NCBI GenBank assembly: GCA_019448385.1
Contig: JAGTXO010000004.1
Location: 310,001-374,000, forward strand
DNA: 64,000 bases
From: Diacronema lutheri
Lineage: Eukaryota > Haptophyta > Pavlovophyceae > Pavlovales > Pavlovaceae
Direction of reading: 5' to 3'
The first letter of the stretch is position 1. The number at the start of each line of letters is the position of its first letter. Under the pieces are notes generated by a model. That model worked only from the letters and a program-made list of their open reading frames with translations. It searched no databases and was not told the DNA's origin. This document shows positions 1,521 to 42,461 of this stretch, one piece after another. Both the position numbers and the translations under genes were made by a program.

Positions 1521-1614
1521 GCTGGCCAGAAGTCCGGAATACTCCGGATCTATCTTCGTTACGCTGCCCACCCGTGCACCCTTTCCGTTTCTCTCGCGGT
1601 TGCCCGAGAGAGGC

Positions 1615-25793: not shown

Positions 25794-25844
25794 CCTGCGT
25801 CGATCGACGGCAGAAGGTGCTCGATCGATGGCGGTCGTGGAACG

Positions 25845-27779
25845 ATGCTGACGTTCCGGCGGGCGATCAGCGGGGCAGCGCGCCACGAGCCGCGAAGAGC
25901 GCTCTTGCGCGCGCTGCCGACGAACAAGCAGATCACTGCGCTACTCTCGGCGCGCGGTCGCTCGCGCCCGCTCTCGCCCGAGACCGCGCTCGGCACGTGG
26001 GCAAAGTTTGGCGAGCGCTTTGACGACATCAGCCTCGCCGCCGCGCTCAGCTGCGTCGCGCGCAGCGCGGCGCGAAGTCCGGACGCGCTGCGCGCGGGGC
26101 TCGCGCGCGAGCCGCTGCGCACCGAATGTGCCAGCCTCCTCGCGCGCGTCGCTGAGCGCCTCCAGCACCTCCAGCCGCGCGAGCTCGTGACCGTGATGCA
26201 CGACGCGAGCGCGCTGCCCGACGAGAGCGCGCACAAGCTCGTCCGCTCAGCGGCCGCACTCGCGCGCGAGGCGGCGCCGCGGCTCACACCGCAGGGCATG
26301 TGCCTCGCCCTGCGCGCGTGCGCCAAGCTCGGCATCGTCGACCACGCGCTGCTCGACGCGATCTCGGCCGAGGCGTTCGGGCGGGCCGGCTCGCCAGCCG
26401 CCGAGTCGGCCGCGGCGGACGGACCGCGCGCGGCCGGCATGCTTGAGCGCTTCTCGCCGCAGGACCTGTCGCAGCTCACGTGGGCGTACGCGACGCTCCG
26501 TCGGGGCGACGACGCCCTCTTTGCGCGCGTCGCGGCGGTCGCGCCCGCCAAGCTGGCGGGCGACGGTGCGAGCACCCAGGCACTCGCAAACATCGCCTGG
26601 GCGTACGCGCGCTCGGGCGCGGCGGGCGTGGCGGGCGCGGCGGAGCTGCTGGACGAGGTGAGCGCGCACGCGCTCCGCCGCGTCGACGAGTTCAAGCCCT
26701 TCGAGCTCGCGATGATCCTCTGGGCGCTCGCCAAGGCGCAGCGACCGAACGTTTTGCTCTTTCAGGCGGCCGCGCATTGCCTCGCGCGCGACGTCGCCCG
26801 GCTGCCGGCGCAGTCGCTGTCAAACGCGGCATGGGCCTTTGCAAAGGTTGACGTGCGCGCCGAGCCGCTCTTCCGCGCGATCGCCGCGAGCGCGCCCGCG
26901 CGTCTCGACACCTTCTCCGCGCAAGCGCTCGTGAACCTTGCGTGGGCGTTCTGCGTGGCTAGCCTTTTGCCCGCGCAGCTCCTCAGGCAGCTCGTGTCGC
27001 GCATCGAGCTTGTGCCGGTCGGACCGGAGACGCCCGTCGCGTACTGGCAGCAGATCCAGCAGCTCGACAACGCGCTGCGCCTCGACGCGCCCTCGCTCGG
27101 CATCCGCTTGAGCCCCGCGCTCGTCGGCGCGTGTCGCGTTGAGATTTGCAAACAGCATGGCGCCCGCAAGCCCTCGAATTTGCACCGCGCAGTCTCCGAC
27201 GCGCTTCGACACCTGCGCGTCGAGCACGTCGACGAGTTCTGCGTGCCCGAGCTCTGCTACCACGTCGACATCGCGCTGCCGCAGCACCGGCTCGTGATCG
27301 AGGTGAACGGGACAATGTGGCACCGCCACGCTGCGGACACGGACGCGCGTGGCGCACCGTTTGGCCGGCATTTGATGAAGTACCGGCACCTGCGCGCGTC
27401 GGGCTGGCGCGTGCTGCTGGTGAGCAGCGGCGAGTGGGCGGAGCTTGGCGGGTGCGTGCACGCGCAGGGCCGCTTTCTCGCCGAGAAGATCGACGCGGCG
27501 ACCGCGAGAAGGTCTGACGCTCTCGGTAGGGAGCGGAGGACGCCGCCAATCGTTTGGGACGAGGAGGGCGGGAAAGCAGCCGGCGCGGACGCGGCGGCGG
27601 CGCGGGCGGGCGGCGCGGCGCTGCAGCCGATCGAGAATCGCGCGCCGCCCGGCACTGTGTTCGCCACGCTGCGCGCCGAGAGCGGGCAGACGCTGAGCGT
27701 GCTCGGCCTCGCGACGTCGGTCGCGCGGCGAGCACCACTGTCCGCGTCTGCGTCCGCGTCAGCGCCGAGCCCTGCTTAA
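25845..27779 (+). CDS. RAP-domain protein with helical repeats (organelle RNA metabolism)
   Basis: 644 codons. The N-terminus is Arg/Ala-rich (MLTFRRAISGAARHEPRRAL), like a transit peptide. Residues about 55-400 carry repeated helical units of about 37 residues with signatures LSQLTWAYATL, ALANIAWAYARSG, ELAMILWALAKAQ, SLSNAAWAFAKVD and ALVNLAWAFC, the pattern of FASTK/OPR-like repeats. The RAP domain lies near residues 460-545 (VDIALPQHRLVIEVNGTMW, KYRHLRASGWRVLLVSSGEW). Proteins of this design bind and stabilise or process mitochondrial and plastid transcripts. The C-terminal 90 residues are low complexity. The ATG at 25845 is the first Met before the leader; an upstream open frame overlaps the divergent gene. 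Confidence 0.87.
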   Translation: MLTFRRAISGAARHEPRRALLRALPTNKQITALLSARGRSRPLSPETALGTWAKFGERFDDISLAAALSCVARSAARSPDALRAGLAREPLRTECASLLARVAERLQHLQPRELVTVMHDASALPDESAHKLVRSAAALAREAAPRLTPQGMCLALRACAKLGIVDHALLDAISAEAFGRAGSPAAESAAADGPRAAGMLERFSPQDLSQLTWAYATLRRGDDALFARVAAVAPAKLAGDGASTQALANIAWAYARSGAAGVAGAAELLDEVSAHALRRVDEFKPFELAMILWALAKAQRPNVLLFQAAAHCLARDVARLPAQSLSNAAWAFAKVDVRAEPLFRAIAASAPARLDTFSAQALVNLAWAFCVASLLPAQLLRQLVSRIELVPVGPETPVAYWQQIQQLDNALRLDAPSLGIRLSPALVGACRVEICKQHGARKPSNLHRAVSDALRHLRVEHVDEFCVPELCYHVDIALPQHRLVIEVNGTMWHRHAADTDARGAPFGRHLMKYRHLRASGWRVLLVSSGEWAELGGCVHAQGRFLAEKIDAATARRSDALGRERRTPPIVWDEEGGKAAGADAAAARAGGAALQPIENRAPPGTVFATLRAESGQTLSVLGLATSVARRAPLSASASASAPSPA

Positions 27780-28057
27780 GCGCGCGCGTGCGCGTCGTAC
27801 GCCCGGGCCAAGGGTGAAGGGCTGAAGGCCTCGGAGTGCGCTTACTGACGGTGCGTGATCCACTGAGTGTTCGTGTCTTCTGCGTTCCCTGGCGCCTGCG
27901 GGTCGCCGAGCTCAACGCCGGCTGCGGACACCGCAACGCGCGCTCGCGCACGCCACAGAGGCCTGACGCGCACCGCGCGCGTCGCGCCATCTCGCGCCAT
28001 GATTCGCGGCGCCCAGGCTGCAGCGGCCACGAGCCGGACTTGCGGTCTGGGGTTCCC

Positions 28058-31000
28058 ATGGAGGGCGGGAACAATGGAGACGGGAGCTGGTACCCGACGG
28101 CGGAGGAGGGTGAGGACGAGGATGGCGATGACGGCGGGAGCTGGCATCCGACGGCGGAGGAGGAAGGTGAGGACGATGATGACGATGACGGCGATGACAA
28201 CGAGGAGGACGCAATTGACGACGACGACGCCGACGCAGATGGCAGCGGCAGCGGCAGCAGCAGCGGCAGCGGCAGCGGCAGCGGCAGCGGCAACGGCAGC
28301 GGCAGCGGCAGCGGCAGCGGCAGCGGCAGCGGCAGCGGCAGTAGCAGGGGCAGCGGCAGCAGCAGCGGCAGTGGCAGCGGCAGCGGCAGCGGCAGCGGCA
28401 GCGACAGCGACAGCGGCAGTGCGAGCTGCGACGATGCGAATGACGACGGCTGCGCGGGCAGCGAGGACGAATCCGGCGAGCGGAAGGACGGAGCGTCCGC
28501 TCCGGCCACGGCTGAGCCGCGCGCCAAAGCTTGGGCTGACTCGTCCGGCCTCGCGTCCGGCCTCGCGTCCTCGCGCGAACCCAATCGTGGCGCCGCGGCG
28601 CTGCTCGCGCGGCTCGGCCCGCACACGGAGCTTGCGCCGCACGGGGCAGCGGCCAGACTCGCGCGCGACGGTTTGGCAGCGAGCGCAAAGCGCGAACCGG
28701 CCTGCGCGAGTGTCAACGAGGAGTGCGGCGCCCTCGCCGTCCCGAGCGTCGGCGAGGCAAGCGGCCGCGCGCACCATGGGGCGGAGCATCTCGCTGCAGA
28801 GCTCGGCGCGGCAGGCGCACTCTCAGAGCTTGCGCGCGGCCGCACGCAAGTCAGTGGCCCGGCGGCAGCGGCGCCCGCACCTGCGCCCGCGCCCGTCCAT
28901 GCGCCAGCGCGCACGGACGCGGCGGGGTGCGCGCGCGCGGCGGCGCCGAGAACGGCGGGCGTTTCGGCGCAGCCACACACTGCGGATGGCATGGTGATTG
29001 GCAGGCGCACGCGCGCGCACGTCTCGCTCGCGGACATGGACATCGACGAGCTCGAGGCGCTGCTGCAGCCGTCACCGACCTCAAGCCCGCCGCCCTCGCC
29101 CGCGCGCGCAAATGCCAACGTCGCCTACCTCTCCTTTCTGCAGGGACTTTTCTCGGGCACACGCGGCGCGCGCGAACCGTTTGCCGCGCCGGGCGCGGCG
29201 GCCGACGCGGCCGACGAGGCCGACGAGGAGGATGAGGAGGACGACGACGATTACAACTATTTGATGGACCGGGCGTGCGATCGAGACGACCTGCCCGAGG
29301 AGTTTGCTGAGATGGAGGTCGACGCCGACGAGCTCCGCGCGCTGCGCGATGAGCGGAGGCCGTCGCGTGCGCGGCGAGAGGCGGCGGCCGCGCGCGCGGC
29401 GGCGCGAGGCGCGGCGGTGGCGACGGTGTGCGACGGCGCGGGCGCATGCACGAATTTGGGCGCGCGCGCATCGGCGCACGCGTCCGTGCCGCACGCCAGG
29501 TCTGCGGCCGCGGCGCAGTGCAGATCGGTCGCGCACAATTGCGGCCCGCTGGCCACGGCGCGCGGCGGCGCGCGCGCGCCGCCACCGCGCGGCGCGGCCG
29601 ACGCCGACGCGGATGGCAAGGCGTGCTGGACCGAGAGGCGGCTGGAGAAGCTGCAGCTGCAGATGGGCGCGCACCTGCAGCTGATGCTTCAACTCCTCCT
29701 CCGCGCGCGCGCAGCGCTGCCGCACGCCGAGCAGCCGGCGACGCCGCAGCGCGCGCAGCCGCTTATCGAGGCCGCGTGCGCTGCCCTCCTCGCCACCTTC
29801 TCCCTCCTCGCCGAGCTGCTCGAGCACGCTGAGGTTGCTGCGGCGTTCAGGCGGCTGTGCGCGCGGCCTTGTTACGCCACGCCGCTCGCGCTCGCGCGCG
29901 CGCCCGCCGGCCGGCCCGCCGCCGCGGCCGCCGCGCCTGTCGGCGGCGCAGTCGGCGCCGTCGGCGCAGCCGGTGCGCCCGGCGCGGCCGCACGGCTGTC
30001 CGGCCTCCCACTGGCCGACGCGGGCACGCCGACAGGCGCCGCGCCGGCCTCGGCGCCCGCGCCGCCGAGCTCGACGCCCTCGCCGTGCGCCGCGCAGAGC
30101 GCGAGCGCGGTTCCGTGGTCCTCATTTTCTGCGCCCGGCATGGCATCGGTGCGCCAAACGCTCAGCTCACTTGGTGAGCTGCCGCTGCCGTCGGAGCGCG
30201 TGCCGGCGAGCGAGCTGTGCGCGCTGTTGCGCGGGCGATCCTTCTCGCTGCTCGAGGCCGAGGAGCCGTACACGGTGCGCGCGCGGCCGCGCCGCGCCGC
30301 ATTTGGTGCCGTGCGCGCGCGCATCCGCGCCCGGCGCGCGCTCACGGCCGCCGATCACCATGCGCCGCGCGCCGCACGCGTGTGGGCACGCACCAGGACG
30401 TGTTCGATCCCGCGATGCGCCCGCCGGGGCCGCCGCCCACGCCCGCCGCCGCCGCGGCTCGCAACGCGCCGGTGGAGAGCGCGGCGACACCTACCGCGGA
30501 CGTGCGTGCGTTTAGCGCCGGCGAGGAGGAGCTCTTGGTGATTGGGCTGCGCCGCTTCGGCACGGCTCGGTTTGACGAGATCCAGCGGAGGCTGCTGCCG
30601 ACGAAGAGCATCGCGCAGCTGCGCGAGCGTTTCAAACTTCGCTCGTCGCGACGCGCGGCGCAGGTGCGCGCAGAGCAAAGCAGCATGCGCGGAAGGAGAA
30701 GTGATCAGCTCGTGCAGAGCGAAGCCACACGTCCGCTTCTCGCGCATGGCGCGCGCGCGCGCGCACTGCACGCTTTGCGCAACCCGCCGCGCAGCTCGGC
30801 GGCGCGTGCACGTGCGCGCCAACGTGCGCGCGCGCGCGCACGCGCGCGCCGCGCCGCGCCTCGCGAGCTCAGGACCTGCCCAACCCAATCCTCGAGTGGA
30901 AGGTGCGCCGTCTCGACTCGCAGTTCGGCGAGCTCGAGCGCGTGCTCATCCTGCGCGCGGTGAGGGAGCAGGGCGCGCAGCAGAGCACGTGGGAGCGGAT

Positions 31001-31610
31001 CTCGATGCAGCTGCTTCCCGCGTACACGAGCACGGCAATCCGCGAATACTACGAGGCCGTGCTCGCGCCGGCAGACCAGCCCGACCCGCCACCGCCGCAG
31101 GCGGAGCTTAGGGCCGCACACTGCGCGATGGGTGGCAGGGCAGCTGCCGCCGTCGCCGCGGCCGCGCACACTGCTCGCGGCGCGTCCGTGTCGGGCGCGC
31201 TGGCTGCCGAGGCGTGCGCGCAGGCCGGCGGCGCCGGCTACGAGTTGGCGGGTTCCCATTGCGCCCCAGCCTGCGCACAAGGCGGCGCTCCGTCTGTCGG
31301 CGCGACGGGCGAGTGCGCGGCGGCGACGGCACAGCAGGTGACGACAGGGGCGCAGCAGCAGACCGCGCTCGCTGCGGCGCTCGCCGCGCAGCGGCAGCAG
31401 CAGGCCGCGCTGCAGCAGCAGGCCGCGCTGCAACAGCAGGCCGCGCTGCAACAGCAGGCCGCGCTGCAGCAGGCGGAGGCCTTGCTGCAGGGGACGCTGG
31501 TCGATTTGAAGGCGAACGACGACGGCGTTGCAGTGGGGCCGCGGCCGCACCCGACAGCATCCCTCCCGTTCGTCGTGGAGACGCTCCTCAATTCGGACGC
31601 GGAAGGGTGA
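28058..31610 (+). CDS. GON4L-like SANT-domain nuclear protein
   Basis: Three exons, 28058-30274, 30397-30663 and 30873-31610, with introns of 122 and 209 bp, both phase 0 with GTGCGC donors, 1073 codons. Exon 1 has an acidic N-terminus, a Ser-Gly tract and then RTRAHVSLADMDIDELEALL and DDDYNYLMD with DDLPEEFAEMEVDADEL, which fits GON4-like proteins. Exon 2 encodes a SANT/Myb-like unit (FSAGEEELLVIGLRRFGTAR, LLPTKSIAQLRERF). Exon 3 begins DLPNPILEWKVRRLDSQFG and has a second helical unit (REQGAQQSTWERISMQLLPA). GON4L proteins are nuclear transcriptional regulators of cell cycle and development. The family call rests on the YNYLMD region plus the SANT context; it is moderate. Confidence 0.72.
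28241..28420 (+). repeat. GGCAGC hexanucleotide tract coding Ser-Gly
   Basis: About 30 hexamer units with scattered substitutions encode an SG-rich linker (Ser-Gly with a few Asn, Arg and Asp) next to a strongly acidic stretch in the GON4L-like protein. Ser-Gly dipeptides in an acidic context can also be glycosaminoglycan or phosphorylation sites; here they are probably just a disordered linker. Confidence 0.85.
31395..31466 (+). repeat. Four-copy 18-bp repeat coding QQQAAL
   Basis: Four perfect or near-perfect units of CAGCAGCAGGCCGCGCTG (CAA/CAG variation in the first codon) near the C-terminus of the GON4L-like protein, forming a Gln/Ala helix. Confidence 0.9.
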
Positions 31611-31736
31611 TGAACAGGCAACAGCTGGTGATGAGGACCAAAATTAAATAAGGAAAATGGCCGTGAGGAAAAAACGCTGAACGGGGAACTCTCCCGCCGG
31701 TGCAGTCTCGCCTTGCGCAGCATCCACCGCGGAGGG
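31611..31736. promoter_or_regulatory. AT-richer spacer between GON4L-like and PAE/Notum-like genes
   Basis: 126 bp between two tandem genes, including AAAATTAAATAAGGAAAATG near 31638-31658, unusual in this window. It may combine the 3' end of the upstream transcript and the promoter of the downstream gene. No defined motif is claimed. Confidence 0.35.
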
Positions 31737-33578
31737 ATGGCAGCGGCCTTTTCGGTCGCGCCGATGCCGCCCTTGGGGCCTGCGCCGCTGGCGCCTGTGC
31801 CGGCCGTGCCGGAGCCGGAGCAGGAGCTTGCGCTGTACGAGCCGCGGCACGCGCTCGTCTCGGCTGATGACGGCGCGTACGCGGACCTCCGTCCGGCCGA
31901 GGCCGGGCGAGGGCCGCACGCCGCGCACCGCCGCCGCCGCCGTGGCCGCCGCTGGCGGACCACGGTGCGGCGAGCGGGCGCGGGCCTGGCGCTCGCGCTG
32001 GTCGGGCTCATTGCAGGCCTCACTGTCGACCGCGGTGGCGTACTCCACCGCGCGCTCGCCCCCGGCCGCACGCTCTGGCGCGAGGATCTGGACGCTCCGG
32101 GCGCGGTGTGCAACGACGGCTCGCCCGGCGCGTTCTGGCTCTCGGAGGCGCGGCCGGATGCGCTGCCCGCGGGCGGCGAGCTTAGCGACAACTGGCTGAT
32201 CATGCTGCAAGGCGGCTTCCAATGCTACTCGAACGCCTCGTGCGCGTGCCGCGCCGGCGCGGCGCCTGATCTCATGTCGTCGCTCGGCTGGCCGGCATGG
32301 CTGAACGTTGAAGGCGTCGTGCACCAGCTATCCGGATGGAACGCGGTGGTCGTAGGCTACTGCTCGTCGGACGCGTGGTTGGGCGACGACAGCTACGGTC
32401 CGGACGGCACGCGGTCCGACAACGCCTCCACCGCCGCGCCGCCGGCGCTGCCGTACGCGCCAACCGGCCAGCCGTTACGTTTCGGCGGGCGCGTGATCCT
32501 CGAGGCGACGCTCCGTCGGCTGGCGGACGTGCACGGGATGGGCGAGGCGAGGCGCGTCATCATCGGTGGCTGCTCTGCCGGCGGACGCGGCGCGCTTTAC
32601 AACCTCGATCACGCGTGCGAGCTCGCCCGCGCGCACGTGCGCGAGGCGCGCGAGCGCGACACGCGCCGGCACGGCGCGCCTGCGCCCGGCGTCGCAACGG
32701 CGGACGAGCTGCGGTGCGGCGGGCTGATCGACGCGGGATGGTGGGTCGATGCGGCGCCGCTGCGCACACAGCGCGAGCGCGGCGTGCCCTCGTTTGCCGA
32801 GGTCGCGCGCGCGTCGTACGCGCTGTACGCGCCGCAACTTGCGCGCGCGCCGCCGGCGGCTGCCGGCAGCGCGGCCAACGGGACGGGCGGCGTGTGTGGC
32901 GACTGCGCGTGGCGCGCGCTACAGCCGGGCGGCGGCGGTTACGCCGGCGGCGCGTCCGACTGCCTGCTCGGCTCGGCGTGCGCCGCGCGCGTGCGCACGC
33001 CCTTCTTCCTAGCGCAGTCGCAATTCGATTCCTTTGCGCTTTCCCTTCTCCTCGGCGAGGCGCCGCCCCGGCGCACGAGCGCTGACCCGGCCGACGCGGG
33101 CTGGGCGCCGGGCGGTACGCTCGCACGCGTGGCCGCCGCGCAGCGCCGGGCGTCGCGCGACGCGTGGACCGGCGCGTTCGCGCCCGCCGCCGAGCCACGC
33201 GCTGGGCTCACGGGCCTTTTCGGCAGCGCGTGCTACACACACTGCCTCGCCAGCTCGGCCGACTGGTTCCGCGTGAGCGTCGGCGGCCGGTCGGCGGCGG
33301 AGGTCTTCGAGAGCTGGCTTGAGTCGGGCAACGAGCTCGCGCTCGACGAATGCTCTGACGGCCTGGCCGGCGGCATCGGCTGCTCGTCCGCCTGCCCGCA
33401 CGTGCCGATCGACAACCCGTGCTCGTGCGCGGCGCCCGCGCATGCGCGCGCAGACGTAGCGCGACGAGGCGTACGCGGTGGCGGGCCGCGCGCGCCGGAG
33501 CTCGATGCGGAGCCGGGCGACGAGACGCTGTGCCCGCGATCGCTTCGACCCGCGCCCGTCGACGGCAGTCAAAAGTGA
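31737..33578 (+). CDS. Pectin acetylesterase/Notum-family serine hydrolase, type II membrane protein
   Basis: 613 codons from the ATG at 31737. A cytosolic N-terminus with a basic run (HRRRRRGRRW) precedes one membrane segment (AGLALALVGLIAGL, about residues 82-97). The lumenal domain has CNDGSPGAFWL, NWLIMLQGGFQCYSNASC, the nucleophile motif GGCSAGGRGA, FLAQSQFDSFAL with the likely catalytic Asp, and FGSACYTHC with the likely catalytic His, all in the order of family CE13 (PAE/Notum). These enzymes remove acetyl or acyl esters from pectin or from Wnt proteins; in an alga a polysaccharide or glycoprotein substrate is more likely. Many Cys residues suggest a disulphide-bonded Golgi or secreted domain. 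Confidence 0.87.
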   Translation: MAAAFSVAPMPPLGPAPLAPVPAVPEPEQELALYEPRHALVSADDGAYADLRPAEAGRGPHAAHRRRRRGRRWRTTVRRAGAGLALALVGLIAGLTVDRGGVLHRALAPGRTLWREDLDAPGAVCNDGSPGAFWLSEARPDALPAGGELSDNWLIMLQGGFQCYSNASCACRAGAAPDLMSSLGWPAWLNVEGVVHQLSGWNAVVVGYCSSDAWLGDDSYGPDGTRSDNASTAAPPALPYAPTGQPLRFGGRVILEATLRRLADVHGMGEARRVIIGGCSAGGRGALYNLDHACELARAHVREARERDTRRHGAPAPGVATADELRCGGLIDAGWWVDAAPLRTQRERGVPSFAEVARASYALYAPQLARAPPAAAGSAANGTGGVCGDCAWRALQPGGGGYAGGASDCLLGSACAARVRTPFFLAQSQFDSFALSLLLGEAPPRRTSADPADAGWAPGGTLARVAAAQRRASRDAWTGAFAPAAEPRAGLTGLFGSACYTHCLASSADWFRVSVGGRSAAEVFESWLESGNELALDECSDGLAGGIGCSSACPHVPIDNPCSCAAPAHARADVARRGVRGGGPRAPELDAEPGDETLCPRSLRPAPVDGSQK

Positions 33579-33638
33579 CGACAGCGAAAGTATCAAGTCG
33601 TAACCGAAGGTTTGGGGAGGCCCATGCACCAGATGTTT

Positions 33639-33650
33639 GATTGGCCAATC
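33639..33650. promoter_or_regulatory. Palindromic CCAAT-box pair upstream of the first MYC-N-like gene
   Basis: GATTGGCCAATC is a perfect 12-bp palindrome carrying CCAAT on both strands, 63 bp before the ATG at 33713. CCAAT boxes are bound by NF-Y in eukaryotes; function here is inferred only from sequence and position. Confidence 0.4.
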
Positions 33651-33712
33651 CGTTCAGGGCGGTCCTGGTTGACAATCCCTTTTTGTGTGCGAACGCGCCA
33701 GCCGGTGAGGTA

Positions 33713-34594
33713 ATGATCCGCACGCGTGGCAAAGGCTCGTCGGTGCGGACGACGGCGGAGAGCAAGGCGGCCCCACCGCGGCGCACGCAAGGCGTCACGA
33801 ACGCGAGCAGGATCGCCGATCAGCTCGACAGCCTGGGTGCATGTTATGCCATTCTGTGGAAGCGCGCGAACGACGATGTCTTGCGCGCCGTCCAGTACCA
33901 CGCGCTCGACGGCGCGGTGATGGAGAACAGCCGAAGCAGCCATTACCGTGCGGGAACGGGTGCGGTGGGGCGCGTGTGGGCAACACGCCGCACCGAACTC
34001 GTGCGTGACGCGAGCACCGCTTCCATCGCGCAGTTTGACCGAGTGCACCTCGCGACGTACTACCGCGTGCGCTCGGTCGCGCTCGCCTACGTCGACGACG
34101 GCGTAGTCGAGGTGGGCAGCGTGTCGCGCGCCCCATGGGACAAGCCGCCCGACGTGCGCGTACTCCACCTCCTCCTCAGCGGCGTGCACGTCCCGTTCGA
34201 CCACGTGGCGCCGCTGCCCGCGGCCGCGCCAACAACGCACCGCTCGGCCGACGCGCTCGCCGACGCCGTGCGCAGCGCTGGCGGCACGTACGCCATCTTC
34301 TGGCAGCACGTGGCCGCGCGCAACGATCTCACGCCTACTTCGTGGTATGCGCTCGACAACGCATGTATGAAGCGCTCGACGACCTTTGCTTCCGCACCCG
34401 GCCTCGGGCCCGTCGGCCGCGCGTGGCTCTCGCAGGAACCCGGCCTCATCGCCGATGTGCGCGCAGCCGAGAGCGAGGCATTCGACCGTCGGCTGCTCGC
34501 CGCACACTTTGGCATCCGCTCGATTGCCTTCGTTCCGTCCGGCGGCGGCGTGCTCGAAATTGGCGCCGACCGCATCTGGGAGTGCGTCCCGTAG
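33713..34594 (+). CDS. Double MYC-N/GAF-like domain protein, copy A
   Basis: 293 codons, single exon. Two related domains lie in tandem. Domain 1 (about residues 30-150) has CYAILWKRAND, GAVGRVWATRRTELVRDA, FDRVHLATYYRVRSVAL and VVEVGS. Domain 2 (about 185-290) has GGTYAIFWQHVAAR, GPVGRAWLSQEPGLIADV, FDRRLLAAHFGIRSIAFVP and GVLEIGADRIWE. The order YAIFWQ, G.G.VGRAW, F......GI.SIAF.P, GV.E.G matches the N-terminal regulatory domain of plant MYC-type bHLH factors, a GAF-like fold that binds JAZ repressors. No bHLH or other DNA-binding region is present. It could be a regulator or sensor; function unknown. Its paralogue follows immediately on the same strand. The ATG at 33713 is the first in frame. 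Confidence 0.75.
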   Translation: MIRTRGKGSSVRTTAESKAAPPRRTQGVTNASRIADQLDSLGACYAILWKRANDDVLRAVQYHALDGAVMENSRSSHYRAGTGAVGRVWATRRTELVRDASTASIAQFDRVHLATYYRVRSVALAYVDDGVVEVGSVSRAPWDKPPDVRVLHLLLSGVHVPFDHVAPLPAAAPTTHRSADALADAVRSAGGTYAIFWQHVAARNDLTPTSWYALDNACMKRSTTFASAPGLGPVGRAWLSQEPGLIADVRAAESEAFDRRLLAAHFGIRSIAFVPSGGGVLEIGADRIWECVP

Positions 34595-34704
34595 CGCGGA
34601 AACTTTCGCACGGGCCCCGTCAAGGCGCGAGCCCCGACGCGGCCGTGCGCGCCTGCACCTCGCAGTCGCACCGCCCGTTGAAAACGGGTCGTTTATGCGT
34701 AAGG

Positions 34705-34731
34705 GCGTGCTGCGTGCTGCACGCAGCACGC
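34705..34731. repeat. Perfect hairpin, 13-bp arms, 1-base loop
   Basis: GCGTGCTGCGTGC and GCACGCAGCACGC are exact reverse complements around a single T, about 110 bp after the stop codon of copy A. It may mark the transcript 3' end or be a cruciform-forming element. Confidence 0.85.
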
Positions 34732-34953
34732 AGCGCGCATCGAATGTGTTGTGGGACTCGAGTCCCTCTCCCCCCCCCCCTCCCCCCCCTCGCAAGAGCC
34801 TGGAACTTCAGGCTCATCCTCCTCTCCTGATCCACAACGTTTTTCGCCCCTCGGCTCGCCTCGACTGAAACGCCAAGCCGCCCGCGAGATGGCGCTCGAG
34901 GCGTGGGCGTAGCGAGTGTCGACGCCAAAGCCGCACGTGGCTTTTCGACCTCA

Positions 34954-34986
34954 TCTGCCCTTTGGTTGTCCAACCAAAAGGGCAGA
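34954..34986. repeat. Hairpin with 15/16-base arms
   Basis: TCTGCCCTTTGGTTG and CAACCAAAAGGGCAGA pair around TC, with one bulged A. It lies about 80 bp before the start codon of copy B and is AT-richer than its surroundings. The free energy should be high for its length; its role is unknown. Confidence 0.8.
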
Positions 34987-35066
34987 AGAGACTCCTTTCA
35001 AATGATATACCTGATATACCTTGTTTAGGCTCGGATCCATGGTTTAGCGGGAACCGGCGAAACCTG

Positions 35067-36035
35067 ATGCGTGCTCGACCGACGCGCCGCGTGTCGGTTC
35101 ATCGCCGAGGCGACAACTCGGCGGAGGCGAACGCGCAGCGCATCTGCGCGGTGCTGGAGGATCTAAGCGCATCATACTGCATCCTATGGACGCCCTCGGC
35201 CAGCAATGGCGGGCGCCTGCGCGCGGGCTCGCACTGCGCGCTCGACGGCGGGATGATGGAGCACAGCCTGCGGGAGCAGTACCGGCCGGGAGTGGGCGCG
35301 GTGGGGCGCGTGTGGGCGGCGCGCAACACCGAGCTTGTACGCAACGCAAACGCTGCAACGGTCGCCCAATTTGATCGCGTGCACCTCGCCTCCTACCACG
35401 GCGTACGTTCGATCGCGCTGAGCTTTGAGGCCGGGAGCGTCGTCGAGGTGGGGACCACGTTGCGCACGCCGTGGGACAAAGCGCCCGACGTGCGCGCGCT
35501 CCGCCTCCTGCTCGCGGGCAAGGATGTTGCGATGAAGAGCATGCCCAAGCCATTCGCGCCGCCCAAGTACTCGCAGGAGAGCTTGGCCAACGTCGTGCGC
35601 GCCAGCGGCGGCGAGTACGGCATCTTCTGGCAGCACCTGCCGACGTTGAACGAGCTCAAGGCAATCGTTTGGTACGCGCATGACAACGAATGCATGCGGC
35701 GCTCATCCACGTTTGCGTTCGCGCCAGGCGCGGGCCATGTCGGTCGTGCGTGGCTCTCACAGGAGCCTGGCCTCCTCGCCGATGTGCACGCACCCGAGGG
35801 CGGCGCGTTCGAGCGGCGGCTTCTCGCTGTGCACTATGGCATCCGCTCGATCGCCTTCGTCCCGACGTGCGGCAGCGTGTTTGAGATTGGCACGCAGCAC
35901 GTCTGGGAGCGCATCCCGGAGCTGCACACCGACCAGTTGTTCGATTCGCTCGACGCGGCCATGCCGGCGTTCGTTGTCTCGCCAGAGTCGGAGCATGAGT
36001 ACGAGCCCAGCACCGATGGCACGGCAAGCCCCTGA
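35067..36035 (+). CDS. Double MYC-N/GAF-like domain protein, copy B
   Basis: 322 codons, single exon. Same two-domain plan as the preceding gene: domain 1 with SYCILWTPSAS, GAVGRVWAARNTELVRNA, FDRVHLASYHGVRSIAL and VVEVGT; domain 2 with GGEYGIFWQHLPT, GHVGRAWLSQEPGLLADV, RRLLAVHYGIRSIAFVP and SVFEIGTQHVWERIPE. A 35-residue acidic C-terminal tail (SPESEHEYEPSTDG) is absent from copy A. The close match across the whole length, the same order and the same strand show a tandem gene duplication after the internal domain duplication. The ATG at 35067 is the first in frame; the frame is open upstream without an ATG through the hairpin region, so the N-terminus is reasonably secure. Confidence 0.75.
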   Translation: MRARPTRRVSVHRRGDNSAEANAQRICAVLEDLSASYCILWTPSASNGGRLRAGSHCALDGGMMEHSLREQYRPGVGAVGRVWAARNTELVRNANAATVAQFDRVHLASYHGVRSIALSFEAGSVVEVGTTLRTPWDKAPDVRALRLLLAGKDVAMKSMPKPFAPPKYSQESLANVVRASGGEYGIFWQHLPTLNELKAIVWYAHDNECMRRSSTFAFAPGAGHVGRAWLSQEPGLLADVHAPEGGAFERRLLAVHYGIRSIAFVPTCGSVFEIGTQHVWERIPELHTDQLFDSLDAAMPAFVVSPESEHEYEPSTDGTASP

Positions 36036-36170
36036 TACGCCCCCGTAGGAGTAAGCCATAGGGCCCCCGTACCGCGTATGTTAATTCGGGCTCGCCAGCG
36101 AGCGCGCGTCGGCGTCCTCGAGGTCAGCCTTTGTAAGAAGCGCGTGCGCCTCGCGACATTTCAGTGCAAG

Positions 36171-37787
36171 TCACGTGCGCGTGTCGCTCGAGCCGCGCGC
36201 TTTGGGCTTCTTGTGCGCGCGTTGAGCGTCCGACGACCGCTCGCCCACCGGCGCCGCTGCGGCCGGTGCCGCCCATGCGAGCTTCTCGCCGACCTTGCGC
36301 GTAGCTCTGCGCTCGGCCTTGCGCGCCGCCTTGCGCGCCGCCTTGCGCTCCGCCTTGCGCGCCGCCCTCGCCACGGCCTCACCCGCCGCGCACGCACTGA
36401 CGACGGGCGCGTGCGCCGGCGGCAAGACGCGCTCGAATCGCGCGACAAAGAAGCCGTTTGTCGAGTCGGCGTCGGCGGCTGCGCGGCAAACGAGCGGCGC
36501 GACGCGACGCAGCTCGGCGTCACCGTCCGCGCCGTCCAATCCGCGGTGCGGCCAGCTCGGTAGGCAGGGCGCGAGCTCGAACCTGCCGCCGCACGCGCGC
36601 AGCACGCGTAGCACAACATCTTCGTTCTCGCGCCGATAGACGGAGCACGTCGAGTAGACGACCACGCGCACAGCCGGCAGCGCCATCGCGTGCAGCACGA
36701 GCCTCTCCTGTGCGCGCGCGAGCGCCTCGACCTCGGCTGAGTCCGGCGCGAGCGCACCGGACTGCCCATCGTGCTCGTCGATCGACGCAAACTCTGACGC
36801 GGACGAGGGCTCGCGCGCGGCGGCGAGCCCCGAGCCCGAGCACGACGGGTCAACGAGCACGTGCGAGACGTGCGCAAACTCGCCGTCGGCCGACGTGTCC
36901 GCCGCGAGGAAGTCGCCCGCGCGCGGCTCGACGATCATCTCGCCCGCCTGCTCGGCGACGCGCCGCCGCAGCGTGGCGAGCCGCGCCGGGTCGCGTTCAA
37001 ATGCCGTCACCCGCCCTCGGCCCATCAGCGCGGCGCAGTGCAGCGTCTTGTTGCCCGGCGACGCGCACGTGTCCACGACGGCGGCGCCGGCCGGCGGCGC
37101 GAGCGCGAGCGCACTCAAACAAGACGACCGGTCCTGCAACACGAGCTCGCCGCGCGCGACCGCGCCGTCGCCGTGCAACGACGTGCCTGGCGGGAGCGCG
37201 AAAAGGCCAGGCACGAGCGGGTCCGCGCAGTACGTGCCCTTGTCGACGCGCAGCGAGTTTGGCCCGCCTGGCCCGGCGGCGGCGGGCGCGCAGCGCAGGC
37301 CGAGCGAGTCGAGATGCGAGCGCGCCTGCGCGTCGCTCATCCGCAGAAAATTGACACGCAGGTAGCGCGGCAGCTTGGGCGTGGGCGCGTACGCATTGGC
37401 CGCGCCGCGTTTGCGCCGCGCCGCAAGCGTCTGCTGCAGCGACGCCTTGCGCCGCCTGACGAGCTCGACGATCGGCGACGTGCCGCGCACGCGCCGCGAG
37501 CCGAGCAGCGCCTCGTAGAGCACGACGACGAGCTCGGCCGGCGGCGGCTCGAGAGGCGGGCAACCGGGCGGAAGCTCGGATGGCGCGAGCGCAAAGAGGC
37601 CGTCCTCTTGCGCGCACGCGAGCAGCTGGTCGCGCGACCATGCGACGCCCTGCACGAGCGCGGTCAGCATGGGCAGCAACGCGGGCGGGCAGCCGGACGC
37701 GTAGAGCTGGTTCTTGATGCCGAGCGCGTGCGAGCTGCCCGTGATCTGCGCCGCGAGGTCAATGAGCAGCTGCGCGTTTCGCGCCAT
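36171..37787 (-). CDS. NSUN5: NSUN5/Rcm1-type 25S/28S rRNA cytosine-C5 methyltransferase
   Basis: 538 codons, single exon. The SAM-binding region has VDTCASPGNKTLHCAAL; the catalytic cysteines lie in HVLVDPSCSGSG (motif IV) and VVYSTCSVYRRENEDVV (motif VI). The N-terminal part, with ALVQGVAWSRDQLLA, ELVVVLYEALLGSRRVRGTS and LPRYLRVNFLRMS, is the NSUN5-specific PUA/RNA-recognition region. NSUN5 methylates one cytosine in the large-subunit rRNA in the nucleolus. The C-terminal ~90 residues are an extra basic tail of repeated AARKAERKA units, a probable nucleolar localisation signal and longer than in the human protein. The last ~120 bp are convergent with the copy B gene. Confidence 0.92.
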   Translation of the reverse strand: MARNAQLLIDLAAQITGSSHALGIKNQLYASGCPPALLPMLTALVQGVAWSRDQLLACAQEDGLFALAPSELPPGCPPLEPPPAELVVVLYEALLGSRRVRGTSPIVELVRRRKASLQQTLAARRKRGAANAYAPTPKLPRYLRVNFLRMSDAQARSHLDSLGLRCAPAAAGPGGPNSLRVDKGTYCADPLVPGLFALPPGTSLHGDGAVARGELVLQDRSSCLSALALAPPAGAAVVDTCASPGNKTLHCAALMGRGRVTAFERDPARLATLRRRVAEQAGEMIVEPRAGDFLAADTSADGEFAHVSHVLVDPSCSGSGLAAAREPSSASEFASIDEHDGQSGALAPDSAEVEALARAQERLVLHAMALPAVRVVVYSTCSVYRRENEDVVLRVLRACGGRFELAPCLPSWPHRGLDGADGDAELRRVAPLVCRAAADADSTNGFFVARFERVLPPAHAPVVSACAAGEAVARAARKAERKAARKAARKAERRATRKVGEKLAWAAPAAAAPVGERSSDAQRAHKKPKARGSSDTRT

Positions 37788-37917
37788 CGCACGACGCGGG
37801 CCCTAGAGCGTGCGGCTGTGCCCTCGCCCTCGCGCGCACCGTCACCGTAGACGTCACCGTCGCCAGTCGTCGTGAGGCGATCGACGATGGGGGGTTCCCC
37901 CGAGCGCGGGGGGCTTT

Positions 37918-37968
<51 letters not shown>

Positions 37969-38162
37969 CACGTCAGCAGTCGCGTCAGCAGTCGCGTCAG
38001 CAAGTGCGGCGAGGCGAGAGAGACCGTGCTTCCCGGGCCACTCAACGCCGCCTTGGGCGCCAGCAAGACATCGACATTCGCCCGACGTGAAGACTGAAGA
38101 CCGTGCACCGTCTTGCTCACGCAGTCAACGCTCGCTGACGTCACCAGGACACAGGACCGCGC
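37788..38162. other. 375-bp spacer with a 47-G run
   Basis: No gene is visible. The spacer contains G47 at 37920-37966, then two and a half copies of the 12-mer GTCAGCAGTCGC at about 37973-38002. It separates the 5' end of NSUN5 from the 3' end of the GT34 gene, so it should hold the NSUN5 promoter. Confidence 0.6.
37920..37966. repeat. Homopolymer run of 47 G
   Basis: Longest homopolymer in the window, about 130 bp upstream of the NSUN5 start. The assembled length should be treated with caution. On the NSUN5 coding strand it is C47. Confidence 0.9.
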
Positions 38163-39092
38163 TCAACCGACCATGGCGTCATCGACGGCCGCCCAACGCG
38201 CGAGCTCCGCGGCGCACTGCGCGCGCGTGCGCCTCGCGCCCGCCAAGCAGCCCGCGATGTGCACGACGAGGTCGCCCGGCGCGTACGTGGCCGGGTACGA
38301 GTTGATCTCGCGCTGCGGCACGTACGCCACCGGTGCGTCCGTGCGCTTGAGCCGCGTGAGCGCGCGGCGCGTCGGCGGCTCAGATGGCGAGCCCATCGCG
38401 TCGAGCGCGTGCTCGAAGGCGCGCTGGTCGCCATGCCGGCTGTTGCGTACGCCAGGCGTGTCGGAGAGGAAGAGAGTCGCGTTCCACACGGCGGCGAGGA
38501 AGGCGTCGGCGTTCGCGCCGCGCCGGAGCAGGAAGACGCCATTGTTGATGCGCGACCCCGACGCCGCGTCGCGGCTGAGCACGAGCCACGTGCGCGGCGA
38601 GCGCATCGCGCGCGAGACGTGCGCGTGCGCGGCGTCGTCGAGCGTCGCGGAGAGGTTGGCGAAGACGGCGTCGGCGTCCATCCACATGGCCCACTCGTGG
38701 CCTGCGTCGAGCGCCGCCTTCACCGCGAGCACCTTGGACCAGCTTGCCGGACGATCGCACGCGAGCGACGCCGGCCCGAGAACGAAGAGCGACAGGCCGT
38801 GCCTCATCGCGTACGCGCGCTTGTTCTGCACCGACACGCGTGCGAGCGCCTTGTACGCCAGGTCATACGACGTGGCAAGCGCGAGGCGCTTATCGCGCCC
38901 GGGGAAGACGGTGGCGGGCCGCGGCGGCGCGCCCGCCGCGAGCTGCTCGCACACGGCGCGGGGCTTGGCGCGGCCCGCGCGACCCCAGTCCGCGCGCGCC
39001 GCACAGATGAGCGCGCACTCCAGCAGCCCGCACGCGCAAATCGCACAGAGCGTCCACGAGTAACGCCGATCACCCGGCGGGCGGCCGACCAT
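38163..39092 (-). CDS. GT34 (GMA12/MNN10-type) galactosyl/mannosyl/xylosyltransferase
   Basis: 309 codons, single exon. It is a type II membrane protein with an N-terminal segment (SWTLCAICACGLLECALICAA). The catalytic domain shows YAMRHGLSLFVLG, SWSKVLAVKAAL, the DxD metal site in EWAMWMDADAVFANL, GSRINNGVFLLRRG, RHGDQRAFEHAL and EINSYPATYAPGDLVVHIAGC. This is the family order of GT34: the W.D.D.D strand, the NNG.FL.R strand, DQ.A and the HFAGC end. GT34 enzymes add hexoses or xylose to glycans in the Golgi. Head-to-head with ASCC2 (95 bp). Confidence 0.88.
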   Translation of the reverse strand: MVGRPPGDRRYSWTLCAICACGLLECALICAARADWGRAGRAKPRAVCEQLAAGAPPRPATVFPGRDKRLALATSYDLAYKALARVSVQNKRAYAMRHGLSLFVLGPASLACDRPASWSKVLAVKAALDAGHEWAMWMDADAVFANLSATLDDAAHAHVSRAMRSPRTWLVLSRDAASGSRINNGVFLLRRGANADAFLAAVWNATLFLSDTPGVRNSRHGDQRAFEHALDAMGSPSEPPTRRALTRLKRTDAPVAYVPQREINSYPATYAPGDLVVHIAGCLAGARRTRAQCAAELARWAAVDDAMVG

Positions 39093-39187
39093 CGCGCTCG
39101 CTCACCGCGCCGGCGCTCGGCCGAGCATCCCGTCCACTCGCACAGGCGCACAGCGCGCCGCGCACACGGGCGATTTGTTGTGGCGCG

Positions 39188-41614
39188 ATGGCAGGCCTCG
39201 TCGAGTTTTTGCCAAGCGACAACGGCAACAACGGAGAGGTGGAGGCGGAGCTGCGCGCCGAGCGCGTGGTGGCGGCACTTACCACCGAGCTGCGCGCGCT
39301 GCTCGCGCTCGAGGCTCGCGCCTTCGCCGCGCGTGCACATGCGCAAAGTGGCCCGATCGCGCTCGCCGTCGAGTCGTTCCTCGCGCACCGCGCGCGCGAG
39401 ACGGGCGTTGCCCCGCACGCGCCTGCAGAGCCACGGGGGCGTGACCCGTACTGCGAGCTCGACCGCTTGATGCTCTTACTGATCGCGCGCCTCGCGGAGC
39501 TGCCGCGCGCCGATTCGACCGCCGGCGCGGCGCGCACGCCCTTTCCACCGCCGTCGACGGCGCCGCAGCTGCTCGACGTCGCCGCGCTGTACGGGCTGTC
39601 CGAGCCGACGCGGGCGGGCGAGATCATCTCGCGCGCGTTCGCGCGCCTGCCTGGTCTCGTCGCCGACCTGGCCGAGGCGCTCGAGCTGTGCTCCGACCTG
39701 GTCGAGCATGCCGTGCAACAGCTCCGAGCGGCCGCGGCCGCGCCTGGTCTCGCGCCACCCCAGGCCGAGGCGGCGGCGGCGCTTGCGAGCGTGCGCGACG
39801 CGGCATTCACGCTGCACGCGCTGGCCGTGTGCCACCCGCCCTCATTGGCGCGCGCCCTCCTGCCCGCGCACGGCGAGCCGACGCGCCTTGCCCGCTCTCT
39901 GTGCCAAGCATACGCAGCCGTGCCCGCTGCAGGCGCAGCGGCGCGCGCGCCGGCGGCGCGCGAGGCGCGCGCGCACGCGCTGCTGCTCTTCGCGCATACG
40001 GCGGGCGCGGTGCACATTGCTGTCGACGTCTCTGGGGACGCTGCCGTGCCCGATGCGGCGCGCGGGCGCGGGGGCGCTGCGCGCGGAGGGCGCAGCGCCC
40101 GCAACGGCCGAGCCGGTCGCGCGGCGGGCGCGTCCGGCGCGGGACCCTCGTCCTCGCCGGACAGCGGAGGCGGCGACAGCAGCGAGCGCGCGCCCGACGA
40201 AGTGCGCGCGCCCAACACCGCGCTCGCCGCGCTCGCTGCGGAGGGCGCGCGGCTCGTGGCAGATTTGGCGCGCGCGTTCCCGCGCGCGGCTGCGCTCTGC
40301 GCGTCGGCGCGCGCCGGCGCAACAGCCGCGAGCGGCGCGGCGGTCGACTCGGCGGCGGTGGCGCAGGTGCTCGAGCTCATCCCTGACCTGGGCGGCGGTT
40401 TCGTCAGCGCGTGCCTCTGGCACTGCAAGGGCGACGTGCCGCGAACCCTCGATCTGCTGCTTGCGGGGGGTAAACTGCCACCGCAGCTTGCGCGCCTCGA
40501 CCGCGCGTGCGCAAGCTGGCAGCCGCCCGACGCGCGCATGCCGCAGCCCGTCGGACAGCCGCTCGCATCGGCGCGCCGGCCGGCCGGCGCCGCGCCACGC
40601 TGGCAAAAATCGGCAGGTGCCCAGACGCGCGAGCTCCTTGACGATGCCCGTGCCGACGGTCGGACGCTGCCGCGCGCGGCGCTCCGCCGGCTCGAGCGCG
40701 GCGACGGCGCGGACGACGAGCGCGACGAGTTTGCGCTGCTTTACGACGACGACTACGACGACGACGAGGACGCGCTGCCCTCGAGCGCGCTCGCGCGTAC
40801 GGACGATGGCGCTGCTGCTGCCGACGCGGGCGTGCTCGGCGCACCTGACGAGCACGCAGCCACGCGGCGCGCGGCCGCCGACCCGCGCGCCGACGCGCCG
40901 CCCGCCGGCCGTTCGCCGGTTGATGGCGCGCGCGCGCACGGCGAGCCGTCGGACGCGCGCGTCGACGGCCCGCGCTCGGTCGCCGAGTGGCTGGGCGCGC
41001 TCGGCCTACCCGCGAACGGTCTCGCGCCGCTCCTCGCGCGTGCGGGCTTTGGCCGCCTCGAGCTCGTGCCGCGCGCGTCCGACGGCGCACTCGCGGCCGC
41101 GGGCGTCACCAACCCGCGTGACCGTGCGCGCATCCTGGCGGGCGCGCGCCGGCTCGCCGAGCGCGCCGGCGCCGGCTTGGGGCAGGGCGCCGCGGCGGCC
41201 GTCGCGGCCGCGGCGGCCGCGAGCGCGGGCGACGACTATTTTGCCGCCACGCGCCTACATTTTGACCGAGAGGCAGGTGGCTTTTGGGCGGAGGATGGGT
41301 CGACGGACGCCGCGCGGCGTGCGGCGGCTGCGAGCGGCGCCTTCTCGTCCACCGACGATGACGGCGACGGCGAGGACGCGCCGGACGTGGGCGGCGTGAC
41401 CGCGGACTACGCGAGCGGCGGGGGGGGGCGCGCGGCCGGGCGCGCGGCCGGGCGCGCCCGCGGCGATGCTCGAGGCAGGGGCGTGGGTGGCCATCCGACG
41501 TCGCAGCTGAGCGGGCAGCAGTCGCAGGCTGTGCGCAACACGGCTGCGGACCACCGGCGCAAGGGTCACGGCCAGCAACAACGCGCCTACGCCAAGCAGG
41601 GTCGGCCGTTCTGA
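39188..41614 (+). CDS. ASCC2: ASCC2-like CUE-domain protein with an added SAM-like domain
   Basis: 808 codons, single exon. The N-terminal helical half (EIISRAFARLPGLVADLAEA, SLCQAYAAVP) fits the ASCC3-binding region of ASCC2. A CUE domain near residues 385-425 (VAQVLELIPDLGGGFVSACL, DVPRTLDLLLAG) is followed by LPPQLARLDRAC, as in ASCC2 (LAP.L..LDR). An acidic LLYDDDYDDDEDA stretch is also an ASCC2 mark. Residues about 597-655 look like a SAM domain (SVAEWLGALGLPANGLAPLL, LAAAGVTNPRDRARILAGARRL), which I do not know from animal ASCC2. The C-terminus ends NTAADHRRKGHGQQQRAYAK. ASCC2 binds K63-ubiquitin and recruits the ASCC helicase to alkylation damage and stalled ribosomes. Confidence 0.8.
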   Translation: MAGLVEFLPSDNGNNGEVEAELRAERVVAALTTELRALLALEARAFAARAHAQSGPIALAVESFLAHRARETGVAPHAPAEPRGRDPYCELDRLMLLLIARLAELPRADSTAGAARTPFPPPSTAPQLLDVAALYGLSEPTRAGEIISRAFARLPGLVADLAEALELCSDLVEHAVQQLRAAAAAPGLAPPQAEAAAALASVRDAAFTLHALAVCHPPSLARALLPAHGEPTRLARSLCQAYAAVPAAGAAARAPAAREARAHALLLFAHTAGAVHIAVDVSGDAAVPDAARGRGGAARGGRSARNGRAGRAAGASGAGPSSSPDSGGGDSSERAPDEVRAPNTALAALAAEGARLVADLARAFPRAAALCASARAGATAASGAAVDSAAVAQVLELIPDLGGGFVSACLWHCKGDVPRTLDLLLAGGKLPPQLARLDRACASWQPPDARMPQPVGQPLASARRPAGAAPRWQKSAGAQTRELLDDARADGRTLPRAALRRLERGDGADDERDEFALLYDDDYDDDEDALPSSALARTDDGAAAADAGVLGAPDEHAATRRAAADPRADAPPAGRSPVDGARAHGEPSDARVDGPRSVAEWLGALGLPANGLAPLLARAGFGRLELVPRASDGALAAAGVTNPRDRARILAGARRLAERAGAGLGQGAAAAVAAAAAASAGDDYFAATRLHFDREAGGFWAEDGSTDAARRAAAASGAFSSTDDDGDGEDAPDVGGVTADYASGGGGRAAGRAAGRARGDARGRGVGGHPTSQLSGQQSQAVRNTAADHRRKGHGQQQRAYAKQGRPF

Positions 41615-41711
41615 TCCCAGTCGGAGTTCTCACAACACTCGCTGTGCAGACGCGGCACGGTTCGCTTCCTGGCCTCCCTCCTGGGCCCGCCCAGTGCGGT
41701 GCGCCGCGTGC

Positions 41712-42461
41712 TCATGACCCCTTCACCTTGGCGCCGTCGGGCTGCGCTGGCGATGGAGCACCATCGCGTTTGCTCCGACCAGGCGCGCGGCCCCTGGCCT
41801 GCAGCCGCCTGAGCTCGGCCTGGCATCTCGACGCAAACGCGGTCAGCGCGGCGAAGAGCGCAAGGAGCGCGCCCACCTTGAGCGCCACGGTGCCGCCGCC
41901 CGATCGTGCCTTGCCCGAGATTGCGTCCTGCAGCGAGCTCGCGGATGAGCCGGCGAGCGACCACGCGACCGAGTAGGGCACGTTGACGACAACGGTGACT
42001 AAGCAGAAGGTGCGCGACGGAACGACATGCTCGGGCAGGGCGGCAAGGCCGTAGTTCTTAAGCGCGATCGGCATGGGCGACGCGCGGATCATCCCGATCG
42101 TCTGCACGGGGTGCGAGACGAGCGCCGTCTGCAGGTGCGCGAGCACGGCACGCGCGCGCCCGAGCGCACCGCGCGGCGTCGCGGGCGCGTTGGCGGATGC
42201 AACCACGCGTCGGCCGCCAGAGAAGCGGTTAGCAAGGGCCCTGCCGAGCGCGAACGCGACGAGGCTGCCGGTCGTCTTGCCGACAATCGACGCGCCGATC
42301 GACAGCGCGGGCGTGAACGTGTAGCCCGCGGCCACCTCGAGCGGCGTCGTGGGCAGGCAGCAGAGCGTCCACGCTGTGAGAAAGGCCGAGTAGTAAACCG
42401 CCCCCAACCGTCCCTGCGTCTGCAGAAAGACAAAGACGCGCAGGGCCGCATCCAGCAGCAT
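41712..42461 (-). CDS. VTT-domain (TMEM64/TVP38/DedA-type) membrane protein
   Basis: 249 codons from the ATG at 42461. VTT marks: LPTTPLEVAAGYTFTPALSI, GASIVGKTTGSLVAFALGR and, in the second half, RASPMPIALKNYGLA, followed by two hydrophobic segments and a basic, proline-rich tail. VTT proteins (TMEM41B, VMP1, TMEM64) act in ER or Golgi membranes, some as lipid scramblases. The frame stays open upstream to 42620 without an ATG, and a pyrimidine-rich acceptor-like site (TTTCTCAG) stands at about 42505, so a missing N-terminal exon is possible. The true start is uncertain. Confidence 0.78.
   Translation of the reverse strand: MLLDAALRVFVFLQTQGRLGAVYYSAFLTAWTLCCLPTTPLEVAAGYTFTPALSIGASIVGKTTGSLVAFALGRALANRFSGGRRVVASANAPATPRGALGRARAVLAHLQTALVSHPVQTIGMIRASPMPIALKNYGLAALPEHVVPSRTFCLVTVVVNVPYSVAWSLAGSSASSLQDAISGKARSGGGTVALKVGALLALFAALTAFASRCQAELRRLQARGRAPGRSKRDGAPSPAQPDGAKVKGS

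Follow-up and report, generated by a model that had tools for sequence, protein, structure and literature searches.

Two adjacent genes, each with two MYC-N-like domains

We analysed a 64,000-nucleotide stretch of the Diacronema lutheri genome (contig JAGTXO010000004.1, positions 310,001 to 374,000; hereafter the window), in which two adjacent plus-strand genes, P1 and P2, each encode two copies of a domain of about 113 residues whose best Pfam family is bHLH-MYC_N (PF14215). P1 (33713..34594) begins with an ATG at 33713, and its stop codon ends at 34594. The 293-residue product comprises two MYC-N-like GAF-core domains and lacks both a basic helix-loop-helix (bHLH) region and a C-terminal tail. 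The reading frame of P2 is open from a TTG at 34962; the start codon, picked by inspection, is the first in-frame ATG at 35067, giving a protein of 322 residues (35067..36035) with two domains and a short acidic tail. This tail (35919..36032) spans 38 residues, with nine Asp or Glu and no Lys or Arg. Both genes are intact.

The first domain copy (d1) lies at 33809..34150 in P1 and at 35139..35486 in P2, and the second (d2) at 34253..34591 and 35580..35918, respectively. Both d2 copies carry the motif [DE]-x-x-C-M-x-R-S, with its cysteine at 34364..34366 in P1 (Cys218) and at 35691..35693 in P2 (residue 244 counting from the TTG at 34962). A reading of the letters without database searches (the sequence-only reading) had quoted YAIFWQ, VGRAW, GIRSIAFVP and GVLEIG as common to all copies. 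These strings are literal in d2 of P1, and d2 of P2 and both d1 copies have variants of them.

The domains match plant MYC-N

Scanned whole against Pfam, P1 and P2 matched bHLH-MYC_N with E-values of 2.8e-17 (64 bits) and 4.4e-14 (53.6 bits), the curated cut-off of this family being 30.2 bits. When the copies were scanned singly, bHLH-MYC_N ranked first in all four, and only the two d2 copies passed the cut-off: d2 of P1 scored 40.6 bits (E 4.3e-10) and d2 of P2 35.6 bits (1.4e-8), d1 of P1 fell just short at 29.6 bits (1e-6), and d1 of P2 reached 23.5 bits (7.6e-5). The comparison with GAF families proposed in the sequence-only reading came out in favour of MYC-N, as GAF_2, GAF and GAF_NLP were weaker in every window copy (best E-values 0.0027, 0.053 and 0.048, respectively). 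Among the general GAF families GAF_2 (PF13185) alone passed its cut-off, and by whole P1 alone (31.3 bits against 28.6); P2 had no match, and the single window copies were below the cut-off or unmatched.

Consistently, a profile built from 20 family copies (described below) and searched against all PDB sequences returned EGL1/EGL3 with an E-value of 6.1e-9 and MYC3 with values of 1.4e-4 to 2.8e-4. Only plant MYC-N chains had E < 0.5, the next chain stood at 0.53, and none of the nine chains listed at E up to 10 was an ordinary GAF chain. End-to-end profile alignment (hhalign) to MYC3 and EGL3, a single pairwise comparison, gave a probability of 98.1. Of 14 control prokaryote genomes, none matched the bHLH-MYC_N profile and 12 matched GAF_2, so a bHLH-MYC_N match is not a generic GAF match. 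Reversed P1, a chance control, matched no Pfam family. Built only from the 16 copies that lie elsewhere in the genome, a profile recovered P1 (1.9e-62) and P2 (1.4e-58) as its sole hits among the 602 window frames (stop-to-stop, at least 60 residues); of 400 residue-shuffled versions of the two proteins, 243 were reported by the search, and the highest score was 4.7 bits.

The predicted fold of the domain is weak, being too poor over residues 41–87 for a pocket to be seen. With this model Foldseek found no match at E <= 0.001, and its structural matches were not specific to MYC-N (23–27% identity in the EGL1/EGL3 alignments listed). PHROGs and NCBIfam gave nothing useful. DUF7050, which matched two paralogues weakly, was set aside; a genome search with it was empty, and the control genomes were likewise silent.

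Collectively, the profile comparisons make a strong case for homology of the family domain to plant MYC-N, and we regard its identity as a MYC-N-type core as very probable. Indeed, the earlier description of two MYC-N-like domains per protein, without bHLH and in an alga distant from plants, is borne out by the Pfam scores and the PDB profile search.

An eight-gene family in the Diacronema genome

Searching the genome (43,492,796 bases in 103 contigs) identified eight family genes with 20 domain copies; these counts are lower bounds, and the search does not join exons. P2, the copy from an ankyrin fusion and the Pfam family returned 14, 18 and 18 matches, respectively, and all apart from C34 fell within the same eight reading frames. 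Besides P1 and P2, these are C47:123605-124888, C6:592436-593575, a tandem pair (C88:359791-361224 and C88:358171-359541) and two frames of unusual architecture. One, at C5:1171979-1175137, encodes 1052 residues that are largely seven MYC-N-like domains. The other, at C5:492762-495623, encodes 953 residues, in which ankyrin repeats and a middle region precede a single MYC-N-like copy near the end; we know of no earlier description of an ankyrin and MYC-N-like fusion. The sequence-only reading had proposed a search for more copies, and this eight-gene family, with its seven-copy and ankyrin-fused members, is its outcome.

Seven of the eight proteins passed the bHLH-MYC_N cut-off, and the ankyrin fusion was below it (27.2 bits). 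NCBIfam ankyrin-effector names on this fusion reflect its ankyrin repeats. Pfam scans of the eight reading frames matched no catalytic, kinase or DNA-binding domain, and no helix-loop-helix (HLH) domain in any of them, exons beyond these frames not being modelled. A 21st candidate copy, C34:526457-527143, was pulled in by an iterated profile and scored only 19.8 bits on bHLH-MYC_N; it was dropped from both the family count and the tree.

No relatives were detected in phages, plasmids, a first scan of prokaryote genomes or viral contigs, where the single-protein queries among these scans reach close relatives only. One 20-residue match in Haloterrigena, from a second scan of prokaryote genomes, was judged to be chance because it lies in an arginine-rich frame of 147 residues without the rest of the domain.

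Age, constraint and layout of the domain pairs

P1 and P2 are 58% identical at the protein level over 274 aligned codons, with a proportion of synonymous differences (pS) of 0.48, a synonymous divergence (dS) of 0.76 and a ratio of nonsynonymous to synonymous divergence (dN/dS) of 0.43, by a simple counting method without base-composition correction. They are adjacent paralogues, as the sequence-only reading had it, and given this identity and dS the pair is not the recent one it had supposed. The C88 tandem pair is younger (dS 0.23 over the domains); its domains are 84% and its tails 37% identical, and the tails evolve fast. The dN/dS of 0.43 indicates that selection acts at the protein level. 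Supporting this, the ratio over the domain regions was 0.37–0.46 in the three pairs measured, which shows purifying selection on the family proteins. Between P1 and P2, d2 is more constrained than d1 (dN 0.24 versus 0.33).

In an unrooted tree, one branch (83/84) sets the six d1 copies apart, and another (79/84) does so for the six d2 copies. This separate grouping suggests that the d1–d2 layout probably predates the duplications that gave rise to the six double genes. In the seven-copy protein, odd and even copies each split off (100/99 and 93/99), a pattern that reads as three pairs of an odd and an even copy with one further even-type copy. The ankyrin-fusion copy has a long branch, and its position is unsure.

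Five residues (Y13, W17, S90, E102 and G104 in the numbering of P2 d2) are invariant in all 20 copies. The [DE]-x-x-C-M-x-R-S motif is found in 6/6 d2 copies and in three of the four even-type copies in the seven-copy protein; the remaining 11 of the 20 copies lack it.

The segment shortened relative to plant MYC-N

The Trp that closes the YAIFW strand is separated from the second matched stretch by 80 residues in MYC3, by 88 in EGL3 and by 23–29, mostly 24, in the 20 family copies. Within the plant stretch that is shortened here we take most of the JAZ-interacting domain (JID), together with the acidic activation helix, to lie. The short stretch is placed differently by MAFFT and hhalign, so its matching plant residues are ambiguous; it may hold a remnant of the JID or of the activation helix, and by its length has no room for both. 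The alignments depict a family that keeps the GAF-like core end to end, without most of the plant JID and activation segment and without bHLH. In plants, the N-terminal region of MYC3 is described as containing the JID together with an acidic activation domain that is structured; helix α4 of the latter forms a groove with the JID, where JAZ and MED25 probably share a surface (PMC7767404). PMC7468482 likewise names the JID with the transactivation domain (JID-TAD) and Jas as the main interacting regions.

We also searched the genome for the plant partners. With a short profile, introns not modelled and prokaryote controls only, TIFY gave no match, and under the same limits Jas gave one place, at 17.4 bits, below its cut-off of 22.1. 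HLH gave no candidate, with introns not modelled; as the control genomes were silent too, its absence from the genome is not proven. The similarly short Myb profile returned 86 genome matches at E <= 0.001. We regard the HLH, TIFY and Jas negatives as suggestive. The many Myb repeats beside few or no bHLH proteins would be of interest in itself if the absence of HLH holds.

The sequence-only reading had hinted at a role like that in jasmonate signalling and had proposed a search for JAZ-like partners. With a segment of 23–29 residues and neither TIFY nor Jas above the cut-off in that search, a JAZ-like mechanism is unsupported, and the shortening itself speaks against a switch of the JAZ type.

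Surroundings of the pair and other features of the window

The pair is adjoined by a pectinacetylesterase-like gene (31713-33578) and, on the minus strand, an NSUN5-like RNA methyltransferase gene (36171-37787). We compared frames of at least 100 residues around the paralogues with those in window positions 28000-42000. Apart from family genes and frames overlapping them, no neighbours were shared at 1e-8, and synteny therefore points to no partner gene.

Upstream of P1, GATTGGCCAATC at 33639-33650 is a perfect palindrome in which two CCAAT boxes face each other; 62 bases separate its end from the ATG. The P1–P2 intergenic region holds two inverted repeats, one at 34705-34738 (16-nt arms, 94% complementary, 2 nt apart) and one at 34950-34990 (14-nt arms, 93% complementary, 13 nt apart). 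The window has a GC content of 72.5% and no Rfam match.

Elsewhere in it, an open reading frame at 1372-4662 encodes a very long proline-serine repeat of the SPPP type, with a 12-base unit repeated 118.5 times at 2518-3978; it resembles hydroxyproline-rich cell-surface proteins such as pherophorins. By eye, 25176-27779 encodes an octotricopeptide/RAP-like protein and 45202-47043 an OTU-protease-like protein.

Proposed function and alternatives

Our favoured reading, to which we give a probability of about one half, is that P1 and P2 are members of a haptophyte family whose tandem GAF-core proteins have a common ancestor with plant MYC-N and act as adaptors or sensors. A working model of how they might do so is put forward tentatively. 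In it, the d1 and d2 of a single chain would pack as a pair. Binding of a ligand or a partner peptide would fall to d2, which is better conserved and has the [DE]-x-x-C-M-x-R-S site, and dimerisation or regulation to the diverged d1. Each paralogue would owe partners of its own to copy number, ankyrin repeats or fast-evolving tails.

The domains might instead come from a different, ordinary GAF family and only happen to score on the bHLH-MYC_N profile, as the passing GAF_2 score of whole P1 and the unspecific structural matches would allow. We consider this improbable: bHLH-MYC_N is best in all four window copies and above its cut-off in all family proteins except the ankyrin fusion, PDB matches under 0.5 are to MYC-N only, and a genome search with GAF_2 listed four other places (two above the cut-off), none of them in the MYC-N-like family. 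Nor do we favour descent from MYC-like bHLH transcription factors that lost their DNA-binding half and JAZ segment. The homology to plant MYC-N would fit such a history, which is nevertheless very improbable, given a genome that yielded no HLH candidate (an unproven absence) where the Myb profile works, a twin layout that appears older than the six double genes, and intact selection on the domain regions in the three pairs.

A more specific role, as small-molecule or redox sensor, seems doubtful. The tandem GAF pairs of phosphodiesterases are the model for it: d2 would bind a ligand through Cys-Met-x-Arg-Ser and signal through d1 or the tails. The GAF-core homology, the confinement of the Cys-Met motif to d2-type copies (9 of 20, including every d2) and the stronger constraint on d2 than on d1 are in keeping with this. 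Against it, no output domain (catalytic, kinase or DNA-binding) was matched in the eight proteins, more than half of the copies (11/20) lack the cysteine, and the model is too poor in residues 41–87 for a pocket to be seen.

It is unlikely, in our estimate, that the proteins are transcription co-regulators whose domains dock on MYB factors as those of EGL3 do and recruit activators through acidic tails. The genome has Myb repeats in number, and P2 ends in such a tail; plant EGL3 binds the MYB factor WER (PMC11457125). P1, however, has no tail. The same paper gives helices α2, α3 and α5 of this region as the MYB interface in a bean model consistent with the EGL3–WER crystal, and some of these helices may lie in the shortened segment. 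Moreover, an R3 docking motif occurred in none of 13 Myb loci (the best 13 of the 86 matches, some from the same gene). MYB docking thus has little support.

Meaning and novelty

Through MYC-N, land plants connect jasmonate repressors, MED25 and MYB partners to transcription. The adaptor or sensor family proposed here would be a natural minimal form of it, a core that lacks DNA binding and most of the repressor-binding segment, in an algal family of unusual repeat architectures. As the core occurs without these parts, it may predate the plant system or be more general than it. We would cautiously sketch a history in which the MYC-N GAF core was a free-standing multi-copy sensor or adaptor in the ancestor of haptophytes and plants, or passed between them; the segment would have been inserted and bHLH fused later, and haptophytes such as Diacronema would keep the pre-insertion state, expanded to two-copy, seven-copy and ankyrin-fused forms. 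An order of core, then insertion of JID and activation helix, then fusion of bHLH becomes testable by phylogeny and structure.

The domain family itself is already known, and profile databases would flag P1 and P2. New are the twin, seven-copy and ankyrin-fused architectures with a shortened segment and without bHLH. In the literature searched, mostly without subscription journals, we came across no report of haptophyte MYC-N proteins and no paper combining a GAF-like domain, bHLH and MYC. Judged by titles and abstract openings, the literature naming PF14215, or bHLH-MYC_N with algae, consists of land-plant studies. One of the papers naming IPR025610 (PMC6393967) reports both domains in mosses and gymnosperms.

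Comparison with known systems

Phosphodiesterases and phytochromes are tandem GAF proteins and, like the family described here, have two GAF-type domains of unequal conservation per chain; they differ from it in that no catalytic or kinase domain was matched in this family. GAF_NLP of plant NIN-like proteins (PF22922) matched P1, the C6 protein and the C34 fragment weakly (E 0.01–0.26), always below the cut-off, and the family proteins had no RWP-RK or PB1 match. MYC3 carries MYC-N once per protein, followed by bHLH, an arrangement from which the family proteins differ. Its MYC-N, which binds JAZ (PDB 4RQW, 4YWC), has in common with the family the YAIFW strand, the GxGxxG stretch and the G-[IL]-[RK]-[ST] and GVVELG strands, and aligns with it end to end, differing in the 80 residues that stand against the family's 23–29. 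The MYB-binding MYC-N of EGL1/EGL3 (PDB 7FDL) is the best PDB match of the family profile. EGL3, which as a bHLH protein partners MYB and WD40 proteins (PMC11457125), has 88 residues where the family has 23–29, and its MYC-N matches that profile at 6.1e-9.
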